Part shown: positions 13,261 through 25,237 of the stretch, piece by piece | How positions within the stretch are numbered: position 1 is the stretch's first letter | How the letters are laid out: every line of letters begins with the position of its first letter | DNA from: Clostridiales bacterium | GTDB taxonomy: Bacteria; Bacillota; Clostridia; Lachnospirales; Lachnospiraceae | DNA length: 32,221 bases | Direction: 5' to 3' | NCBI GenBank assembly: GCA_021202175.1 | Contig: JAJQDO010000334.1 | Span: 1-32,221, forward strand | The notes under the pieces: generated by a model | Database searches by the model: none | Told to the model about the DNA's origin: nothing | What the model saw: the letters and a program-made list of their open reading frames with translations, nothing else | Made by a program: the position numbers and the translations under genes

Positions 13261-13282
13261 GGTATTGTTGAGGAGTGGATTT

Positions 13283-14731
13283 ATGTCAAACACGTTATAT
13301 CTGGAATGTAATGCAGGAATCAGCGGAGATATGACAGTGGCAGCGCTGCTTGATCTAGGCGCCAGTCAGGAAGTCCTGATGAAAGCGTTAGACAGTATTC
13401 CTGTACAGGGATTTTCTGTAGCAATCAGTCGAGTAAAGAAATCTGGGATTGATTGCTGTGATTTTAATGTCATTTTGGACGCAGATTATGAGAATCATGA
13501 TCACGATATGGAATATCTACATGATTGTGATTACGTACATCACGGTCATGAACATCACCATCATGGGGATGCAGGCCATGATCACGAGCATCATGAAAAT
13601 AATCATCATCATGAAGGTGAGGAACATGACCGTGACCATAGCCACCATCGTGAAGATGAGGAACAAGAGCATAGTCACCATCATCACAAAGGGGAAGAAC
13701 ATGAACACAGCCATCATCACGGAGATGAGGGACATACGCATATCCATCGCGGAATGAAAGAAGTTACGGAAATTATCCAGGGGACGACAATGACAGAGAG
13801 CGCAAGAAAGATTGCCTTGCATATTTTTAACATCATTGCCCGAGCAGAGGCAAAGGCCCATGGGTTGCCGGTCGATCAGGTTCATTTCCATGAAGTGGGA
13901 GCGATTGATTCGATTGTGGATGTGTTGGCTGTTGCTGTTTGTCTGGATGATTTGCAACTGGATGGGGTGATTGTGCCAAAACTCTGTGAAGGAACAGGAA
14001 CGGTTCGCTGTCAGCATGGAATATTACCAATACCGGTTCCGGCTGTGGCCAATATTGTGCAGGAAAATGGGTTGAATCTTGAGATTCTTCCTGTACAGGG
14101 AGAATTTGTGACACCAACGGGGGCGGCTATCGTTGCGGCGGTGAAGACCTCAGACTGCCTTCCGAAATCCTTCCGAATCAAAAAGATTGGTATTGGAGCA
14201 GGAAAACGTTCCTATGAAAGACCAAGTATGCTTCGTGCCATGTTGATTGAACCAGTGAAGAGGACCGTGGAGGAGATATCTGCAGATAGCCCGGAGGATT
14301 GTGTGTATCGACTGGAAACCAACATTGATGATTGCTCTGGAGAAATCTTGGGATATACGATGGAACTGTTGTTTGCTGCAGGAGCCAGAGATGTGCATTA
14401 CCATCCTGTCTATATGAAAAAGAACCGTCCGGCCTGGCAGTTGAATGTACTTTGTGATGAGAAGGATATTTCCCGGATGGAAGAAATTATCTTTCGAGAA
14501 ACGACGACGATCGGTATCCGGCGAGTTTGCATGGAACGAACGGTGCTTTCCAGAGAGAGCCGACAGGTGGAGATTCCTTACGGTACAGCGAAAGTAAAAG
14601 TTTGCCGTTATGGCAGTAATATAAAATACTATCCGGAATATGAGTCAGTGAAAGTGCTTTGTCAGGAAACGGGACGCTCGTATCAGGAAGTGTATCGGGA
14701 TATTGTTTGTGTTTGCGAGAAACAGAGTTAA
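13283..14731 (+). CDS. larC: Nickel-pincer cofactor synthesis protein LarC, single ORF, His-rich
   Basis: A LarC-family protein of about 482 residues. In characterised systems LarC inserts nickel into the pyridinium bis-thiocarboxylate to finish the nickel-pincer cofactor of lactate racemase and relatives. The start at ATG 13283 follows GAGGAG; the ORF-track TTG at 13265 lies upstream of it. Motifs: ECNAGISGDM at the N-terminus, VHFHEVGAIDSIVDVL, CQHGILPIPVPA, EFVTPTGAAI, KIGIGAGKRSYERPSMLRAM, ETNIDDCSGEILGYTMELLF, MKKNRPAWQLNVL. Between about residues 70 and 158 lies an insert with 34 histidines, a likely Ni2+ store or buffer. The LarC1 and LarC2 parts are in one frame, unlike Lactiplantibacillus plantarum, where a frameshift joins them. 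No larA, larB or larE is in the window. Confidence 0.93.
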   Translation: MSNTLYLECNAGISGDMTVAALLDLGASQEVLMKALDSIPVQGFSVAISRVKKSGIDCCDFNVILDADYENHDHDMEYLHDCDYVHHGHEHHHHGDAGHDHEHHENNHHHEGEEHDRDHSHHREDEEQEHSHHHHKGEEHEHSHHHGDEGHTHIHRGMKEVTEIIQGTTMTESARKIALHIFNIIARAEAKAHGLPVDQVHFHEVGAIDSIVDVLAVAVCLDDLQLDGVIVPKLCEGTGTVRCQHGILPIPVPAVANIVQENGLNLEILPVQGEFVTPTGAAIVAAVKTSDCLPKSFRIKKIGIGAGKRSYERPSMLRAMLIEPVKRTVEEISADSPEDCVYRLETNIDDCSGEILGYTMELLFAAGARDVHYHPVYMKKNRPAWQLNVLCDEKDISRMEEIIFRETTTIGIRRVCMERTVLSRESRQVEIPYGTAKVKVCRYGSNIKYYPEYESVKVLCQETGRSYQEVYRDIVCVCEKQS

Positions 14732-16388: not shown

Positions 16389-16403
16389 ACTTATAATAAT
16401 AAA

Positions 16404-16496
16404 AAGGGGAGCTTGTGGAAAGCAGGCTGAGAGGAGACTGTATCGTCTCGACCCGGAAACCTGATGTGGATAATGCCAACGTAGGGATGCATCTTG
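16404..16496 (+). ncRNA. TPP (thi-box) riboswitch aptamer
   Basis: The region carries the conserved thi-box elements in order: GGGGAGCTTG, GCTGAGAGGAGA, CTCGACCC, then ACCTGATGTGGATAATGCCA and ACGTAGGGA. CTGAGA (16427-16432) and the GGATAATGCC block form the pyrimidine and pyrophosphate binding arms in known TPP riboswitches. It lies directly upstream of thiM-thiE and is followed by a terminator, so TPP should switch transcription off. Confidence 0.96.
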
Positions 16497-16507
16497 ATGA
16501 ATTTAAG

Positions 16508-16565: not shown

Positions 16566-17387
16566 ATGCTTGGTAATTGTATCGATAATGTAAGAAAAAC
16601 CGTGCCGCTCGTGCATAATATTACGAATTATGTGACGGTAAATGATGTGGCAAATGTGTTGCTGGCCTGTGGCGGCAGCCCGATTATGTCGGATGAACCG
16701 AAGGATGTGGAAGATATCACTTCCATCTGTGGTGGATTGAACATCAATATTGGAACTTTGAGCGAGAGAAGTATCCAGGGCATGTTTGCTGCTGGAAAAA
16801 AAGCCAACGAACTGAATCATGTGGTTCTTCTTGATCCGGTGGGAGCCGGTGCCAGTGCGCTCCGGACGCAGACAGCGGTGGAATTGATGGAGACGTTGAA
16901 GTTAACTGTAGTGTGGGGAAATATTTCCGAGATAAAGACGTTAGCGCTTGGTAGTGGCACGACAAAGGGCGTAGATGCTGACGTAGCGGATGCGGTGACA
17001 GAAGACAGTCTGGACAGTGCAGTGGCATTTGTGAAAGATTTCGCCAAAAAAGTCGGATGTATCGTCGCAATCACTGGAGCCATCGATTTGGTCAGTGATG
17101 GGGAGAAATGTTATGTGATCCGTAACGGTCGCCCGGAGATGGGGAAGATTACAGGAACAGGCTGCCAGCTTTCCGGCATGATGACCGCTTTTGTGGTGGC
17201 GAATCCAGAGCAGAAGCTTCTGGCAGCGGCAGCGGCTGTAGCTACTATGGGCCTGGCCGGAGAGATTGGCTGGAGCCGTATGCGGGAAGGCGACGGCAAT
17301 GCTACCTACCGCAATCGGATTATAGACGCTATTTACAACATGGATGGCGTGACCTTGGATCAGGGAGCGAAATATGAAGTGCGATGA
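16566..17387 (+). CDS. thiM: Hydroxyethylthiazole kinase
   Basis: A 273-residue ThiM, which phosphorylates 4-methyl-5-(2-hydroxyethyl)thiazole (THZ) so that salvaged thiazole can enter thiamine synthesis. The family sequence runs throughout: PLVHNITNYVTVNDVANVLL at the N-terminus, SPIMSDEPKDVEDI, NINIGTL, VLLDPVGAGAS, WGNISEIKTL and the ATP/anion-hole GKITGTGCQLSG with the catalytic Cys. The ATG follows AAAGGAGA. It is first in the operon behind the TPP riboswitch, and thiE starts 24 bp after its stop. The presence of ThiM points to thiazole salvage. Confidence 0.96.
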   Translation: MLGNCIDNVRKTVPLVHNITNYVTVNDVANVLLACGGSPIMSDEPKDVEDITSICGGLNINIGTLSERSIQGMFAAGKKANELNHVVLLDPVGAGASALRTQTAVELMETLKLTVVWGNISEIKTLALGSGTTKGVDADVADAVTEDSLDSAVAFVKDFAKKVGCIVAITGAIDLVSDGEKCYVIRNGRPEMGKITGTGCQLSGMMTAFVVANPEQKLLAAAAAVATMGLAGEIGWSRMREGDGNATYRNRIIDAIYNMDGVTLDQGAKYEVR

Positions 17388-17411
17388 AGTTCGATAAGGA
17401 AGGGACAAAGT

Positions 17412-18053
17412 ATGAGATGCGATAAGAAAGATTTACTGCTTTATGCGGTGACGGACCGGAGCTGGTTAAACGGGGCTACTCTTTACAGTCAGGTGGAAGC
17501 AGCCTTAAAAGGCGGGGCTACTTTTGTGCAGCTGCGGGAAAAGGAATTGGACAGTGAGCATTTTCTGGAAGAAGCGAAGGAGATACAGAAGCTTTGCAGG
17601 GCGTATCATGTTCCTTTTGTCATCAATGATAATGTGGATATCGCTCTGGCAATTGACGCCGATGGTGTTCACGTAGGGCAAAGCGATATGGAAGCCGGTG
17701 ATGTGCGAGCGAAGCTGGGACCGGATAAGATTATCGGCATTTCGGCTCAGACTGTGGAACAGGCCGTTCTGGCAGAAAAGAGGGGCGCTGATTATCTTGG
17801 CGTGGGCGCTGTTTTCCCTACCGGGTCCAAGGACGATGCTGTGGAAGTAGACCATGACACCGTAGAGGCCATCTGTGAAGCGGTGCATATCCCGGCCATC
17901 GCGATTGGCGGTATCAGCCGCGCAAATGTGTTGGAACTTTCTGGTAAAGGGTTGAGCGGCATTGCGGTTATCAGCGCGATTTTTGCACAGCCGAATATCG
18001 AGGAGGCTACCAGAGAACTGAAAAGCCTGACGAAAAAGATGGTAGAAGCGTAA
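17412..18053 (+). CDS. thiE: Thiamine-phosphate synthase
   Basis: A 213-residue TIM-barrel enzyme that couples HMP-PP with thiazole phosphate to give thiamine monophosphate and PPi. Key motifs are FVQLREKELD (about 36-45), PFVINDNVDIAL, DGVHVGQSDME, the phosphate-binding GVGAVFPTGSKDDA and AIGGISRANV near the C-terminus. The start is supported by AAGGAAGGG upstream. It lies 24 bp after thiM and is co-transcribed under TPP control. A ThiL-type kinase or a TMP phosphatase is needed next; no thiL is present, but a HAD phosphatase follows. Confidence 0.96.
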   Translation: MRCDKKDLLLYAVTDRSWLNGATLYSQVEAALKGGATFVQLREKELDSEHFLEEAKEIQKLCRAYHVPFVINDNVDIALAIDADGVHVGQSDMEAGDVRAKLGPDKIIGISAQTVEQAVLAEKRGADYLGVGAVFPTGSKDDAVEVDHDTVEAICEAVHIPAIAIGGISRANVLELSGKGLSGIAVISAIFAQPNIEEATRELKSLTKKMVEA

Positions 18054-18176
18054 TGTGGGACAGGATTCATAGGGATGGATCTGCAGTATGCAAAGTTAAG
18101 GAACTGTTACGATTTAGACTAGGCAGATGTACAGATTAATTCATTAACACTTCCTAATTTGGAGTGAGAACAAAAC

Positions 18177-18896
18177 ATGCATCATAATAGATATGAAAAT
18201 CATGACAAGAATGTGGTAAAAGTTATGAATTGTAAAAATGGGGAAATAAGAATACGAGGAGCCATCTTTGATGTGGATGGAACCCTGCTGGATTCCATGA
18301 GCATTTGGGATGATCTGGGCGCCCGCTATCTGCGAAGCTTGCAGGTGGAGCCGGAATCAGATTTGCAAAATATCTTAAATACGATGACAGTGGAAGAGGG
18401 TGCGGCCTATATGAAAGAACGGTATCATCTCGAAACTTCTGAAGAAGAAATCGGTCGAGCTACCCTTCAGGTTGTCGAAAGCTTTTATTATGAGGAGGCA
18501 CCTCTGAAATCGGGCGTTCGGGAATTGCTGGAAGATTTCCGGCAAAGAGGAATACCGATGGTAGTGGCTTCTTCCAGCGCAAGAGATCATATTGAAGCAG
18601 CCTTTCGCCGTCTGGGAATTCTTGAATATTTTGAACGCATTTTTACATGTACGGAAATCGGTGTGGGAAAAACCAGACCGGACATCTTCCTGACAGCGGC
18701 TGAGTTTCTGAAAGCGAAACCGGAAGAAGTTTATGTATTTGAGGATGCCATTCATGCGGTGGAAACGGCAAAAAATGCTGGTTTTCCAGTTGTTGCGGTT
18801 TACGATGAAGCCAGTAAGATGGAATGGTCGCAGATTTGCGAGATGGCGGATGTGGCTGTGGTAGATCTGGGAGAGTTTTGTGTAGATAAACTGTGA
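18177..18896 (+). CDS. HAD-superfamily hydrolase, subfamily IA
   Basis: A 239-residue HAD phosphatase/phosphomutase-like protein. Motif I is FDVDGTLLDS (nucleophile Asp and acid/base Asp at the DxDGT), followed by a helical C1 cap, motif II VVASSSARDHIEA, motif III lysine in the GVGKTRPDIFL segment and motif IV VFEDAIHAVETAKNAG. The closest general types are beta-phosphoglucomutase and small-phosphate phosphatases. The first ATG (18177) has GGAGTGAG upstream; ATG 18225 is a possible alternative, since the domain begins about residue 27. It lies 123 bp after thiE on the same strand. A role in thiamine phosphate dephosphorylation is an inference from position only. Confidence 0.88.
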   Translation: MHHNRYENHDKNVVKVMNCKNGEIRIRGAIFDVDGTLLDSMSIWDDLGARYLRSLQVEPESDLQNILNTMTVEEGAAYMKERYHLETSEEEIGRATLQVVESFYYEEAPLKSGVRELLEDFRQRGIPMVVASSSARDHIEAAFRRLGILEYFERIFTCTEIGVGKTRPDIFLTAAEFLKAKPEEVYVFEDAIHAVETAKNAGFPVVAVYDEASKMEWSQICEMADVAVVDLGEFCVDKL

Positions 18897-19242
18897 TTTT
18901 TATCGCAAAAATCATGTTATGGCAGAGGGTGTTTAAAATCTGGTGTGGTTTACTTAAAAACGTCATAAATTTACAAGGATGTGAACAATGATGATTTAGT
19001 ATTCTTGAGAGTCAGATACTGGGAAACTAAAAATTAACTGTGACAAAACTTATATGTAAATTATAAACAAGGCGTAAACGATAACTTGACTGGATAAAAC
19101 CAAATTCATAAAAACTTTATAACATTTAATAAAACATTATTAAAAATATTATTTCAATATAATATCAATAGAAAAACCGCGGTACATTGGGGGCACCACC
19201 TTGTATCGCGTAACAAAATTAATGCAGAAAGAAGGAATATGT
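18897..19242 (+). promoter_or_regulatory. thiD-cytX upstream region with compact hairpin leader
   Basis: No gene is seen. Most of it is AT-rich. A -10 TATAAT lies at 19158-19163 with a poor -35. The predicted transcript begins about 19170 and soon forms CGCGGTACA (19178-19186) paired with TGTATCGCG (19202-19210), nine pairs including one G-U, around the 15-base loop TTGGGGGCACCACCT. CCTT at the loop edge (19199-19202) is complementary to AAGG of the thiD ribosome site (19232-19235). There is no thi-box here. The structure may be a small regulatory RNA element. Confidence 0.45.
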
Positions 19243-20106
19243 ATGAGAACAGCATTAACAATCGCTGGGAGTGATTCCAGCGGAGGCGCCGGCATCCAGG
19301 CAGATATCAAGACAATGATCAGCAATGGCGTATATGCCATGAGCGCGATCACTGCTCTGACTGCGCAGAATACGACCGGTGTAACAGGCATCATGGAGGT
19401 ATCTCCAGAATTTCTCGGAGAGCAGATTGACAACATTTTTACCGATATTCGCCCGGATGCAGTAAAAATCGGCATGGTTTCCTCCGGCAACCTCATCGTA
19501 GAGATTGCCAAAAAACTGAAAGAGTATGATGCCAAAAATATTGTAGTGGACCCGGTAATGGTCGCTACCAGCGGAGCAAAACTGATCAGCGATGATGCCA
19601 TCGCCACTTTAAAAGAGTATTTGCTGCCGATGGCTACCGTTTTGACACCGAATATTCCCGAGGCGGAGGTTCTGTCCGGCATGTCCATCAAATCAGAAGA
19701 AGACATGATCGCAGCAGCTCGCGTCATCAGCGAGAAATATCATTGTGCTGTACTGTGCAAAGGAGGCCATCAGCTAAACGATGCCAATGACCTGTTATAC
19801 CGGGATGGTTCATTCCGATGGTTCCACGGCAAGAGAATCGACAACCCCAATACGCATGGAACCGGCTGCACCCTTTCTAGTGCGATCGCTTCCAATCTGG
19901 CCAAAGGTTTTGATCTGGATGCTTCTGTGGAACGGGCAAAAAGGTACATTTCCGGAGCATTAGCTGCCATGCTTGACCTTGGGAAAGGCAGCGGGCCGAT
20001 GAATCATGGCTTCGCCATCGTGGGGGAATTCATGAAAGAATATGGTCAGGAGGCATTTGCACAAGACTCTGAAGAAAATGCCTCTGAAAATAGTGGGGAG
20101 GTGTGA
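19243..20106 (+). CDS. thiD: Hydroxymethylpyrimidine/phosphomethylpyrimidine kinase
   Basis: A ThiD of about 287 residues that phosphorylates HMP to HMP-P and then HMP-PP, the pyrimidine half of thiamine. The start at ATG 19243 (MRTALTIAGSDSSGGAGIQA) follows AAGAAGGAA; the ORF-track TTG at 19201 lies inside the leader hairpin and is rejected. Other motifs: AITALTAQNTTGV, AVKIGMVSS, VVDPVMVATSG, LTPNIPEAEVLSG and the ATP-site NTHGTGCTLSSAIA. It overlaps or abuts cytX, forming an import-and-activate unit for HMP. The acidic tail (SEENASENSGEV) is longer than usual. Confidence 0.95.
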   Translation: MRTALTIAGSDSSGGAGIQADIKTMISNGVYAMSAITALTAQNTTGVTGIMEVSPEFLGEQIDNIFTDIRPDAVKIGMVSSGNLIVEIAKKLKEYDAKNIVVDPVMVATSGAKLISDDAIATLKEYLLPMATVLTPNIPEAEVLSGMSIKSEEDMIAAARVISEKYHCAVLCKGGHQLNDANDLLYRDGSFRWFHGKRIDNPNTHGTGCTLSSAIASNLAKGFDLDASVERAKRYISGALAAMLDLGKGSGPMNHGFAIVGEFMKEYGQEAFAQDSEENASENSGEV

Positions 20107-20108
20107 TT

Positions 20109-21281
20109 ATGATGGAGGAAAGACGCACCGGTATATTTGAAAATGGCCTCATCTGGTTTGGAGCCGGCGTTTCCATCGCCGAGATTCTGACGGGAACATA
20201 TTTCGCACCACTTGGCTTTCAAAAAGGCCTTCTGGCGATTCTTGTGGGCCATGTCATCGGTTGTTTGATGTTATTTTTCGCTGGCGTCATTGGCGGCAAG
20301 GCCAGAAAAAGTGCCATGGAAACGGTGAAGATGAGCTTCGGTCAGAAAGGCAGTCTGTTATTTTCCATCTTGAATGTAGCACAGCTCGTTGGCTGGACAG
20401 CCATCATGATTTATGACGGCGCTTTGGCTGCAGACGGCATCACGAATACCGGGCGGCTGATCTGGTGCCTGGTGATCGGAGCCCTGATTATCGCCTGGAT
20501 TTTTGTGGGGATCACCAACCTGGGTAAGATTAACACCGTTGCTATGGCAGCCCTTTTCCTCCTTACACTGGTTTTGTGTAAGGTCATTTTCTTTGACAAC
20601 AGTCCGATGGGGATTGTCGATGACGGTAGCTTGACCTTTGGCGCGGCAGTAGAGTTGTCCGTAGCGATGCCATTATCCTGGCTTCCGCTGATCAGTGATT
20701 ACACCAGGGAAGCCAAAGAACCGGTGAAAGCCACGGCGGTCAGTGCCGTTGCCTACGGTCTGGTCAGCTGCTGGATGTACATCATTGGTATGGGTGCGGC
20801 CATCTATACGGGAGAATACGACATTGCTAGCATTATGTTAAAAGCTGGTCTGGGTATTGTCGGCCTGTTGATTATCGTATTTTCCACAGTGACCACCACT
20901 TTTTTGGACGCCTACTCCGCAGGAGTATCCAGTGAATCTATCTGGTCCGGTTTCAAGGGAAAATATGCAGCCATCGTGGTAGCTGTCATCGGAACCATTG
21001 CGGCCATCGTATATCCGATGGATAATATCACGGACTTCCTGTATCTGATTGGTTCGGTTTTCGCGCCGATGATCGCTGTTCAGATTGCAGATTTCTTCTT
21101 CCTGAAAAAAGATGCAGAAGATAAAGACTTTGACGTGGCGAATCTGATCATCTGGGTGATTGGATTTATTGCCTACCGTATTCTGATGAACATTGATATG
21201 CCTCTGGGTAACACCTTGCCAGATATGGTCATTACTATCGTGATCTGCCTGATCGTGGGGAAGATTCGCGGGAAAGAGTGA
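20109..21281 (+). CDS. cytX: CytX, putative hydroxymethylpyrimidine permease
   Basis: A roughly 390-residue, 12-helix integral membrane transporter of the NCS1 (cytosine/purine permease) family. The CytX branch is recognised by WFGAGVSIAEILTGTYFAPL, GWTAIMIYDGALAADGI and LSVAMPLSWLPLISDYTREA. CytX genes usually occur with thiamine genes and are thought to import HMP. GGGGAGG precedes ATG 20109; the annotated GTG at 20103 would overlap the thiD stop. Its position directly after thiD supports an HMP role. No terminator follows closely; a hairpin at 21396-21440 faces the other strand better. Confidence 0.92.
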   Translation: MMEERRTGIFENGLIWFGAGVSIAEILTGTYFAPLGFQKGLLAILVGHVIGCLMLFFAGVIGGKARKSAMETVKMSFGQKGSLLFSILNVAQLVGWTAIMIYDGALAADGITNTGRLIWCLVIGALIIAWIFVGITNLGKINTVAMAALFLLTLVLCKVIFFDNSPMGIVDDGSLTFGAAVELSVAMPLSWLPLISDYTREAKEPVKATAVSAVAYGLVSCWMYIIGMGAAIYTGEYDIASIMLKAGLGIVGLLIIVFSTVTTTFLDAYSAGVSSESIWSGFKGKYAAIVVAVIGTIAAIVYPMDNITDFLYLIGSVFAPMIAVQIADFFFLKKDAEDKDFDVANLIIWVIGFIAYRILMNIDMPLGNTLPDMVITIVICLIVGKIRGKE

Positions 21282-22659: not shown

Positions 22660-23139
22660 TTAAAACATCAGTGTTTTTGTTGGTGATAGTATAGTATAAA
22701 AAGGAATTCCTTGCAAGATATAATAATCATCCAGAAATAATTCCCTGGCCACTTTCACCGCCAACGGAGTCACAATAGACATTTCATGATATCGAAACAA
22801 AATAGCAGTATTATAGCAGACAATCATTTCCTTCGTTTCTTTCCATGTTGGAGTGTTTGGCGGACACCTGTGACTTCTTCCGTATATACTGCATCCATAG
22901 CGACATTTATATACCATCCATGCAGCAGTAACAATTGTTTTAGGGTCAATCACCATTGCTCCATCCTCCCTACAATCAGTTATCGCTCGGCGGTATTCAC
23001 CCTCTGTTTCTCTTGCTTTTGTGTTTCTGGCTGGATAACACGGTTCACAGTCCTTATGCCGGACAGGGAATGTAGGCGGGAAAGAGGGTGAGCATCGCAG
23101 ATCGCACAGAATATCCGCAAAGATATAGAAAGTGTGCCC
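22660..23139 (-). pseudogene. DUF2284 metal-binding protein remnant
   Basis: The ORF track gives a 98-aa ORF from ATG 22956, but the same frame stays open 61 more codons upstream, to an in-frame TAA at 23140-23142, and reads as protein: RHKDCEPCYPARNTKARETE, EYRRAITDCREDGAMVIDPK. There is no good start codon in that extension. The core (KCRYGCSIYGRSHRCPPNTP, TWKETKEMIVCYNTAILF) matches DUF2284, a cysteine-rich presumed metal-binding domain. After VARELFLDDYY the sequence departs from the family (ILQGIPFYTIL) and stops, so the C-terminal Cys cluster is missing. Both ends are therefore lost. The apparent GGGAGG before ATG 22956 is part of the coding sequence. Confidence 0.65.
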
Positions 23140-23371
23140 TTACAAGTAAGGGATTAAATGAGTTACAGTTGGGAGGCTTTTTGTCCAATATTCATAGTAT
23201 AGTCACACATTTTTCGTTTTCGAGTGCTATAATATATAGCCAAATGAAGCAGACGAGGTTTGAGCTTTTTATTTTTTGTCATATATTCCTACTAAATAGA
23301 TAGGTAATTATGGTTTTAGCAAAGTATATATTTCCCGTCTGTCTGCAAACAGAAAGTCGAGGTATAAAATT

Positions 23372-23941
23372 ATGCGAAAGAAAGCTATCTGTGTGATTGC
23401 GGGAGTTGTTATAGTAATCGCGGCAGGTGTTGTAATTGCAACATCAAACCGAACGGACAATACAACTGATACAGTCCTGAGCGAAAGTGCTTCAACTGAA
23501 GTATCAGAAAATACACAAAATGCTGCAAACGGCACGGAAGATACAGAGGATGAGCAATCTTCTTCCACATCAGATGGCGGTATTGAAATTTCTATAGCTG
23601 AAGTAGGAACACAGGCAAGTTATTATGATACTGAAATTGACGGAACCACGGTCGAAATCCTCGCTGTCCTCGCTTCTGACGGAACGGTACATTTGGCGAT
23701 GAACACTTGCCAGGTGTGCAACGGTTCTCCATATGCGTACTTTGAGCAGGATGGGGATTATTTTGTCTGCCAGAACTGTGGAAACAAGTTTTCCTCCGAC
23801 GAAATCGGGCTTGTAAGCGGCGGTTGTAATCCCGTTCCGGTTATTGAGGATGATTACACGGAAAGTGATGGCATTATAACTGTTTCCGAGTCTTTCCTTG
23901 AGGAAAACGCCTACCGTTTTTCTAAGTGGAAACAGTTTTAA
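23372..23941 (+). CDS. DUF2318 Fe-S/metal-binding membrane-anchored protein
   Basis: A 189-residue exported protein. Residues 1-25 form a signal anchor (KKAICVIAGVVIVIAAGVVIA), followed by an acidic Ser/Thr/Asn-rich linker of about 45 residues, then a DUF2318 domain as in FtrD. That domain shows TCQVCNGSPYAYFEQDGDYF, VCQNCGNKF and the closing SGGCNPVPV, giving cysteines suited to bind a metal or Fe-S cluster outside the membrane. GAGG lies upstream of the ATG. The next gene starts 12 bases after the stop with its own AAGGAGG, so they are an operon. In known FtrABCD systems the DUF2318 protein takes part in iron uptake; here the partner differs, so a role in copper, iron or thiol redox transfer is inferred. 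Confidence 0.88.
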   Translation: MRKKAICVIAGVVIVIAAGVVIATSNRTDNTTDTVLSESASTEVSENTQNAANGTEDTEDEQSSSTSDGGIEISIAEVGTQASYYDTEIDGTTVEILAVLASDGTVHLAMNTCQVCNGSPYAYFEQDGDYFVCQNCGNKFSSDEIGLVSGGCNPVPVIEDDYTESDGIITVSESFLEENAYRFSKWKQF

Positions 23942-23953
23942 AGGAGGCAGTAT

Positions 23954-25237
23954 TTGAGCAGAACAGTTATTCATGTCACAGGCATGACCTGCGTGAGCTG
24001 CGAACGTAGGCTTATAGGCGCTGTCTCAGCTTTGGACGGGGTTCAGTCAGTGACGGCAAATTATGGAAAAGGAGAGCTTTGCGCCGAATTTTCCTCTCCC
24101 TGTACGGAAGACATTATCATTGAAACAATAAAAAAGACCGGCTATGGTGTTTCAAAGGATGCAAAAAATACCGGGAATGCCATTGCTATACTCATTATTA
24201 TTCTTGGTTTGTACGTTATTGCAAGACAACTGGGATGGACGGAAGTGTTTCAGAATATCCCGACAATAAGTGCAGAACGGATGAGTTACCTTGCATTGTT
24301 TTCGATAGGCCTGCTTACATCCGTCCACTGCATTGCCATGTGTGGGGGCTTAAATCTTGTGCAGAGCATTTCGGCAGGAAACACAAAACCCCTGCGCCGC
24401 AGTATTTTATACAATCTTGGCAGACTGACAAGCTATACTCTGATAGGCGGCATCTTGGGCCTCATCGGGGAAAAAGCCTCCATCACCCTGCAGGTAAGGG
24501 GAATTATTGGCCTGATAGCCGGTGGCTTCATGCTCCTTATGGGCATAAATATGCTCGGAGGTTTTTCTTTTTCACTGCGTTTGTTTCCTAAACTGTCCGG
24601 CAAATTGTCGTCCGGAATACAGAGCATTGGAAAACACAGCTCTTTTGCTGTTGGTCTTGCAAACGGTCTGATGCCCTGCGGTCCACTGCAATCCATGCAG
24701 ATATGCGCAATCGCCAGTGGGAGTATGTTAGCAGGCGCACTTTCCATGTTCTCTTTCTGTCTAGGCACAATCCCGCTCGTTTTTGCATTCGGTATCGCCG
24801 CCGGTGCGCTTAAAAACCGCTGGCGCCAGCTTATGCTCCAGGTCGGATCTGTCCTTTTGATTATTATGGGTGTCTATATGGTTCAGAACAACCTTGTTCT
24901 TACAGGTTTTATGAACCAGACTGCAGGTTCAGATTTTGAAAATATGGTTGTGTCTACAGTAGAAGGTAATGTACAATATATCACAACAACGCTTCACTCC
25001 AACGGATATGATGATATCCAGGTTACGGCTGGTATCCCTGTTGTGTGGACAATTGAGGCAGATGAAGATAGTTTGAATGGCTGCAACAATCAGATTGTAC
25101 TGTCAGCATTTAATCAGCAGGTGACGCTTAGTGAAGGAGAAACGGTCATCGAGTTTACGCCGGAGCAGACGGGCACATACACCTATTCCTGCTGGATGGG
25201 TATGCTAAAAAATACAATTACAGTTGTTGATGACTAG
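23954..25237 (+). CDS. HMA - TauE/SafE membrane - cupredoxin fusion protein
   Basis: A 427-residue three-part protein starting at TTG 23954 after AAGGAGG (6-base spacing). Residues 1-67 are a heavy-metal-associated domain with the CxxC site GMTCVSCERR. Residues about 75-310 are a polytopic membrane domain of the SafE/DsbD-like class (LLTSVHCIAMCGGLNLVQSI, YNLGRLTSYTLIGG, ANGLMPCGPLQSMQI), with conserved Cys residues as in CcdA/DsbD-type redox transporters. The last roughly 95 residues are a cupredoxin-like domain (IPVVWTIEADEDSLNGCNNQ, YSCWMGM) whose Cys and Met could bind copper. It is coupled to the DUF2318 gene. The likely role is moving metal or electrons across the membrane; the exact substrate is unknown. 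Confidence 0.88.
   Translation: MSRTVIHVTGMTCVSCERRLIGAVSALDGVQSVTANYGKGELCAEFSSPCTEDIIIETIKKTGYGVSKDAKNTGNAIAILIIILGLYVIARQLGWTEVFQNIPTISAERMSYLALFSIGLLTSVHCIAMCGGLNLVQSISAGNTKPLRRSILYNLGRLTSYTLIGGILGLIGEKASITLQVRGIIGLIAGGFMLLMGINMLGGFSFSLRLFPKLSGKLSSGIQSIGKHSSFAVGLANGLMPCGPLQSMQICAIASGSMLAGALSMFSFCLGTIPLVFAFGIAAGALKNRWRQLMLQVGSVLLIIMGVYMVQNNLVLTGFMNQTAGSDFENMVVSTVEGNVQYITTTLHSNGYDDIQVTAGIPVVWTIEADEDSLNGCNNQIVLSAFNQQVTLSEGETVIEFTPEQTGTYTYSCWMGMLKNTITVVDD

Follow-up and report, generated by a model that had tools for sequence, protein, structure and literature searches.

Architecture of the gene pair

The window, i.e., the whole analysed stretch of 32,221 nt, comes from an uncultured gut-type Bacillota bacterium whose genome comprises 3.85 Mb in 357 contigs. 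In it, a gene encoding an exported DUF2318 protein and a gene encoding an HMA–DsbD_2–cupredoxin fusion form an adjoining pair at 23372-25237, with a gap of 12 nt between them and an AGGAGG placed 6 nt before the TTG start of the fusion gene (Table 1). Both genes and their domains had been proposed in a sequence-only reading of this DNA, and are confirmed here by Pfam (PF10080, PF00403 and PF13386) and, for the cupredoxin, by its match to CupA. The same genome holds a second copy of the pair (contig C26), 77%/66% identical to the window pair. That the metal/thiol residues are kept in 45–46 of 46 homologues, and that DUF2318 adjoins the fusion in 41 of 44 loci of the window clade, argues against a chance pairing.

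Table 1. Positions of the gene pair, its predicted control elements and other features of the window
Feature	Position	Strand	Basis or remark
TPP riboswitch	16395..16504		upstream of a thiM-thiE-HAD-thiD-cytX-like run (16566-21281)
LarC (nickel pincer cofactor) gene	13265..14731		long His-rich insert
Short Cys-rich reading frame	22660..22956	-	presumably resembles a piece of a DUF2284-type metal-binding protein
Putative promoter TTGAGC-16-TATATT	23260..23287	+	abuts the operator; consensus scan only, 9/12 matches, weak
Palindrome CCTACTAAATAGATAGG, predicted Rrf2/CymR-like thiol-regulon operator	23288..23304	+	67 nt before DUF2318 start
DUF2318 (FtrD-like) protein, 189 aa, exported/membrane-anchored	23372..23941	+	PF10080 E 2.9e-24; N-terminal hydrophobic anchor
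DUF2318 domain, predicted Rieske-like fold	23612..23920	+	CxxC-x16-CxxC-x15-C invariant
AGGAGG ribosome-binding site of fusion gene, strong	23942..23947	+	sequence
HMA–DsbD_2–cupredoxin fusion, 427 aa	23954..25237	+	TTG start
HMA domain, CopZ-like, C13/C16	23966..24145	+	PF00403 E 1.1e-9; CopZ 2qif TM 0.95; 45/46 rows
7 predicted transmembrane helices (1 linker helix + DsbD_2)	24170..24904	+	AlphaFold2 model (pLDDT 75), hydropathy, DsbD alignment
H125-C126-x2-M129-C130, DsbD_2 helix 1	24326..24343	+	invariant, 46/46 rows
P241-C242-G243, helix 4	24674..24682	+	invariant; C242 aligned with second membrane Cys of E. coli DsbD
CupA-like domain	24941..25234	+	C377, C413, M415, M417 = CupA C74, C111, M113, M115

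The fusion protein joins CopZ-like, DsbD-like and CupA-like domains

The N-terminal domain of the fusion scores over the Pfam cut-off as HMA, and it shows likeness to CopZ, also in fold, and to the metal-binding domains of Cu-ATPases; both the ferredoxin-like HMA fold and the MxCxxC motif are present. The membrane domain matches PF13386 (DsbD_2) with an E-value of 1.3e-47 (162.7 bits) and PF02683, also over cut-off, with 34.1 bits. At the C-terminus, the Pfam cupredoxin match (PF13473, 0.0044) falls below cut-off, yet this weak call is settled by CupA of Streptococcus pneumoniae, which is the best match both in sequence (phmmer E 6.2e-6) and in fold (4f2e by Foldseek, TM 0.86, rmsd 1.4). The Cu(I) ligands of CupA are C74, C111, M113 and M115 (PMC5646241), and the cupredoxin fold with these four ligands is common to the fusion, to CupA and to the metal-binding domain of pneumococcal CopA (4f2f). 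CupA itself, however, is a small anchored chaperone encoded in a cop operon, whereas here the domain is the outward end of a fusion with HMA and membrane parts, whose gene lies behind a thiol-type operator.

In the alignment of 46 homologues, H125, C126, M129, C130, C242, C413, M415 and M417 never vary, and C13, C16 and C377 each vary in one row. One near-clade copy (locus L009, 10001-11287) has a tyrosine in place of C377, the first CupA cysteine. In three distant fusions (L077, L084 and L086), the CupA-like domain is present twice in tandem, with two CxMGM motifs.

The AlphaFold2 model (mean pLDDT 75) contains seven membrane helices, which places the CopZ-like and CupA-like ends on opposite sides of the membrane; in the model, whose membrane part is of moderate confidence, the CopZ-like domain would lie inside and the CupA-like domain outside. 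Against E. coli DsbD, the membrane domain gives an hhalign match of 93% (E 2.7e-7), with C242 falling on the helix-4 cysteine of DsbD and helix 1 of the fusion lying outside the aligned part. The domain is related to the thiol-electron relays DsbD and ScsB, the latter tied to copper tolerance, but the fusion differs from them in lacking a thioredoxin-like domain, in bearing HMA inside and cupredoxin outside, and in having HCxxMC in helix 1.

The DUF2318 protein has a predicted Rieske-like fold

DUF2318 proteins share five invariant cysteines, and relatives of the window protein carry lipoboxes. The structure model is good (pLDDT 87.8), and the listed top 50 PDB fold matches are all Rieske-type, with E-values of only 4e-3 to 4e-2 and TM scores of about 0.5. 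In its spacing, CxxC ... CxxCG..F....G...GGCNP.P follows the Rieske motifs but has Cys where these have His; the Rieske ligand set of two Cys and two His is absent from DUF2318, which has CxxC ... CxxC and no His. A profile search of PDB ranks zinc fingers first and reaches a Rieske subunit of cytochrome b6f (E 0.14) with the motifs in the same register; a single-sequence search of PDB returned nothing useful, and a viral fold library gave no match. Judging from the model and its fold matches, DUF2318 likely adopts a Rieske-like fold.

The iron-uptake protein FetA, from the Campylobacter cluster, contains DUF2318 as well (PMC10783030, PMC6083913), and a 2018 paper maps DUF2318 genes almost always to FetMP-type clusters (PMC6083913); the fusion-linked loci plainly add a second setting. 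In C. jejuni, FetA (fetMP-fetABCDEF) has a DUF2318 domain with five cysteines, as here, but there the domain sits on a protein of eight helices that has YHS, and the partners are FTR1/P19. That the window pair belongs to an FtrABCD/FetMP-type iron-uptake system is a reading to which the shared DUF2318 domain lends some support, and we regard it as extremely improbable: FTR1 (PF03239) was not found in the whole genome, and no P19, ABC or thioredoxin partner was seen near the window pair. Iron uptake was rejected on the missing FTR1, and the likeness to FtrB and FtrD drawn in the sequence-only reading fails here on the same ground, as well as on the match of the cupredoxin to CupA.

Relatives of the pair lie among sulfur genes or beside CopA

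Neighbouring genes were named by inspection and by BLAST against clusters already labelled; NCBIfam or Pfam served to check representatives. Cys/Met PLP enzymes, CysK, SsuA/C, MetE/F, NifS and MalY within 5 kb were counted as strict sulfur genes. Most of the relatives' loci come from metagenome-assembled genomes, many of which bear isolate names that differ little, and the first survey favours near relatives. In the window clade, the pair belongs to cysteine, methionine or sulfonate operons in 35 of 44 loci, each with a strict sulfur gene no more than 5 kb away, and one locus has CopA at that range; as a scale for chance, the five Cys/Met PLP genes over cut-off in the organism's own 3.85-Mb genome would put a neighbour of that family within 5 kb in about 1–2% of cases. 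Of 21 loci from distant Bacillota, 11 have CopA within 5 kb, 6 have sulfur genes and 4 have both. In some loci, reading frames overlap: the stop of a PLP enzyme gene overlaps the DUF2318 start in L034 and L041, and the fusion reading frame overlaps CopA in L078 and L086. The tree makes L017 the sister of the window copy, and L017 is divergent from csoR-copA. No strict sulfur gene was found within 5 kb of the window pair, whose link to sulfur comes from its operator and its clade; CopA is found near neither the window pair nor the second copy. The latter (L057, 3313-9324) lies beside a sulfopropanediol dehydratase, an activase and SsuABC, genes of sulfonate use.

In sulfur islands of six loci (L005, L018, L028, L007, L045 and L010), a cluster recurs that comprises CN-hydrolase, LarE, ThiF/TcdA-like, GshA, class II glutamine amidotransferase, a second GshA-like and ATP-grasp genes, a putative thiol pathway.

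The sequence-only reading had called for a neighbourhood comparison in search of a P-type ATPase or FTR1; CopA turned up in the distant loci, and FTR1 was not found in the genome. A consistent link to another pathway, which that reading held to speak against it, emerged in part, as window clade and operator both point to sulfur/thiol metabolism; this changes the regulation and leaves the conserved copper ligands in place.

Sulfur operons and operator, together with a second copy beside sulfopropanediol dehydratase and SsuABC, would also suit a module for the transport of sulfite, thiosulfate or sulfur derived from cyst(e)ine, the kind of function that the name SafE suggests; the module's likeness to copper proteins would then be ancestral only. 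We consider this improbable: Pfam gives DsbD_2 and DsbD_TM but no TauE family (PF01925, no match in the fusion at E 0.1), the sulfur-context copies keep all copper ligands except one residue in L009, and relatives have a CopA context. A TauE sulfite exporter was rejected for want of Pfam support.

A predicted thiol-type operator precedes the pair

The palindrome upstream of the window pair has the form CCTAC-N7-ATAGG, found in exactly this form at the same place in the closest relative (L021), and promoters of several relatives share CCTAT-N7-ATAGG. In the 3.85-Mb genome, the CCTAY palindrome occurs at seven sites, six by sulfur/thiol genes and one before the window pair. The three exact CCTAT sites lie in the sulfonate island between the operon of the second copy and sulfopropanediol dehydratase, before an O-acetylhomoserine-sulfhydrylase-type gene, and before an arylsulfotransferase-like/Cys-Met PLP/sulfite-reductase-like run. 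Besides the one before the window pair, the four CCTAC sites comprise two before an Rrf2 regulator with glutamate-cysteine ligase and one before a second glutamate-cysteine-ligase-like gene, which has no Pfam match and is named by similarity to an L007 protein (TIGR01436). Since a reversed-palindrome control gave 14–16 genomic sites, the operator claim draws on the location of the seven sites, not on their excess. The Rrf2 protein of contig C233 resembles CymR (105 bits, against a CymR model cut-off of 195) and may be the repressor that binds the palindrome.

A CsoR box with fewer than three mismatches is absent before the window pair; the only two 3-mismatch matches, of one spacing, both lie at least 140 nt upstream of the predicted promoter, and none occurs before the second copy at up to 3 mismatches. 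By comparison, the organism's own CopA has a CsoR box with 1 mismatch and L017 has two exact ones. CsoR control of the window copy was rejected for lack of a good box. RNA regulation was likewise rejected, since Rfam gave a single match in the window, the TPP riboswitch at the thiamin genes. Taken together, the 35 of 44 near loci and the six of seven operator sites by sulfur/thiol genes suggest that the proposed copper module of the window is wired to sulfur/thiol supply.

In a computational study of 2016, COG2836 (HMA, DsbD_2) and DUF2318 genes of gut Firmicutes were assigned to a CsoR meta-regulon with predicted CsoR sites (PMC4938975). The proteins described there likewise have HMA, DsbD_2 and DUF2318; the CupA-like end is undescribed in that study, and here a sulfur/thiol operator stands where no CsoR site is found. 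Copper regulation of genes of this kind was thus predicted in 2016, and the additions made here are the thiol-regulon wiring and the DUF2318 Rieske-like fold. An experimental study of the fusion was not found in the literature.

Proposed mechanism

On the computed domains, conserved ligands, model orientation, operon conservation, sulfur-gene context and operator set, we propose, with a roughly even chance of being right, that the pair is a Cu(I)-handling membrane module with DUF2318 as redox partner, under thiol-type control. The cytosolic CopZ-like HMA domain would receive Cu(I), which would cross the membrane via an intramembrane site formed by H125, C126, M129 and C130 together with C242, and be presented by the extracytoplasmic CupA-like domain through C377, C413, M415 and M417. 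DUF2318 alongside would serve as redox partner or as acceptor, and would hold copper and the CupA thiols in the reduced state. In this lineage, through an Rrf2/CymR-like repressor at the palindrome, the module would be switched on together with sulfur assimilation and glutamate-cysteine ligase, so that copper would be controlled while thiol pools are built or short. A role in copper handling is supported by the CupA match with its four ligands, the CopZ-like N-terminus, helices that set the two ends on opposite sides, CopA in 11 of 21 distant loci, the divergent csoR-copA of L017 and the CsoR control predicted for HMA/DsbD_2/DUF2318 genes in gut Firmicutes (PMC4938975). The domain order and the copper idea of the sequence-only reading therefore hold. 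In line with thiol wiring, a cymR mutant of S. aureus is copper sensitive with copA up-regulated (PMC2869319), a cross-talk of copper and cysteine.

Against Cu(I) hand-off stand the window pair without a CsoR box and the absence of CopA near either of the organism's own copies; moreover, a passive outward path for Cu(I) would have to run against the membrane potential, and electrons are the usual cargo of DsbD-type domains. Electrons rather than copper may cross: the DsbD-like domain would export reducing equivalents from cytosolic thiols, taking them by way of the HMA CxxC or of thioredoxin and delivering them to the cysteines of the CupA-like domain and to DUF2318, and would so make an extracytoplasmic cupric or disulfide reductase. 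C242 on the DsbD redox cysteine and the Rieske-like fold of DUF2318 favour such a relay, as do the CupA cysteines, which reduce Cu(II) with electrons from an unknown source (PMC5646241), and the DsbD relative ScsB, which serves copper tolerance and keeps ScsC reduced (PMC8900818); it suits thiol and copper contexts alike. However, thiol exchange needs no invariant His/Met of HCxxMC and CxMxM, and an HMA domain would be an unusual electron donor. The electron relay is nearly as attractive as Cu(I) hand-off, because the DsbD-like domain and the Rieske-like partner fit electron traffic and the electron source of CupA is unknown; with the conserved His and Met ligands favouring metal, we judge it somewhat unlikely. 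A one-polypeptide relay from cytosolic thiols to the outer CupA-like copper site, in which DUF2318 would carry electrons on cysteines alone in a Rieske fold, the whole being expressed within a cysteine/glutathione regulon, is a tentative and, taken as a whole, unlikely proposal; if true, it would couple copper (or electron) export directly to thiol supply.

If the Cu(I)-handling module is borne out, copper handling would be tied to sulfur supply in anaerobic gut bacteria, and CupA-type sites would gain a candidate source of electrons or copper, a source reported as unknown for pneumococcal CupA. DUF2318, present also in the Campylobacter iron system, would gain a testable fold and role.
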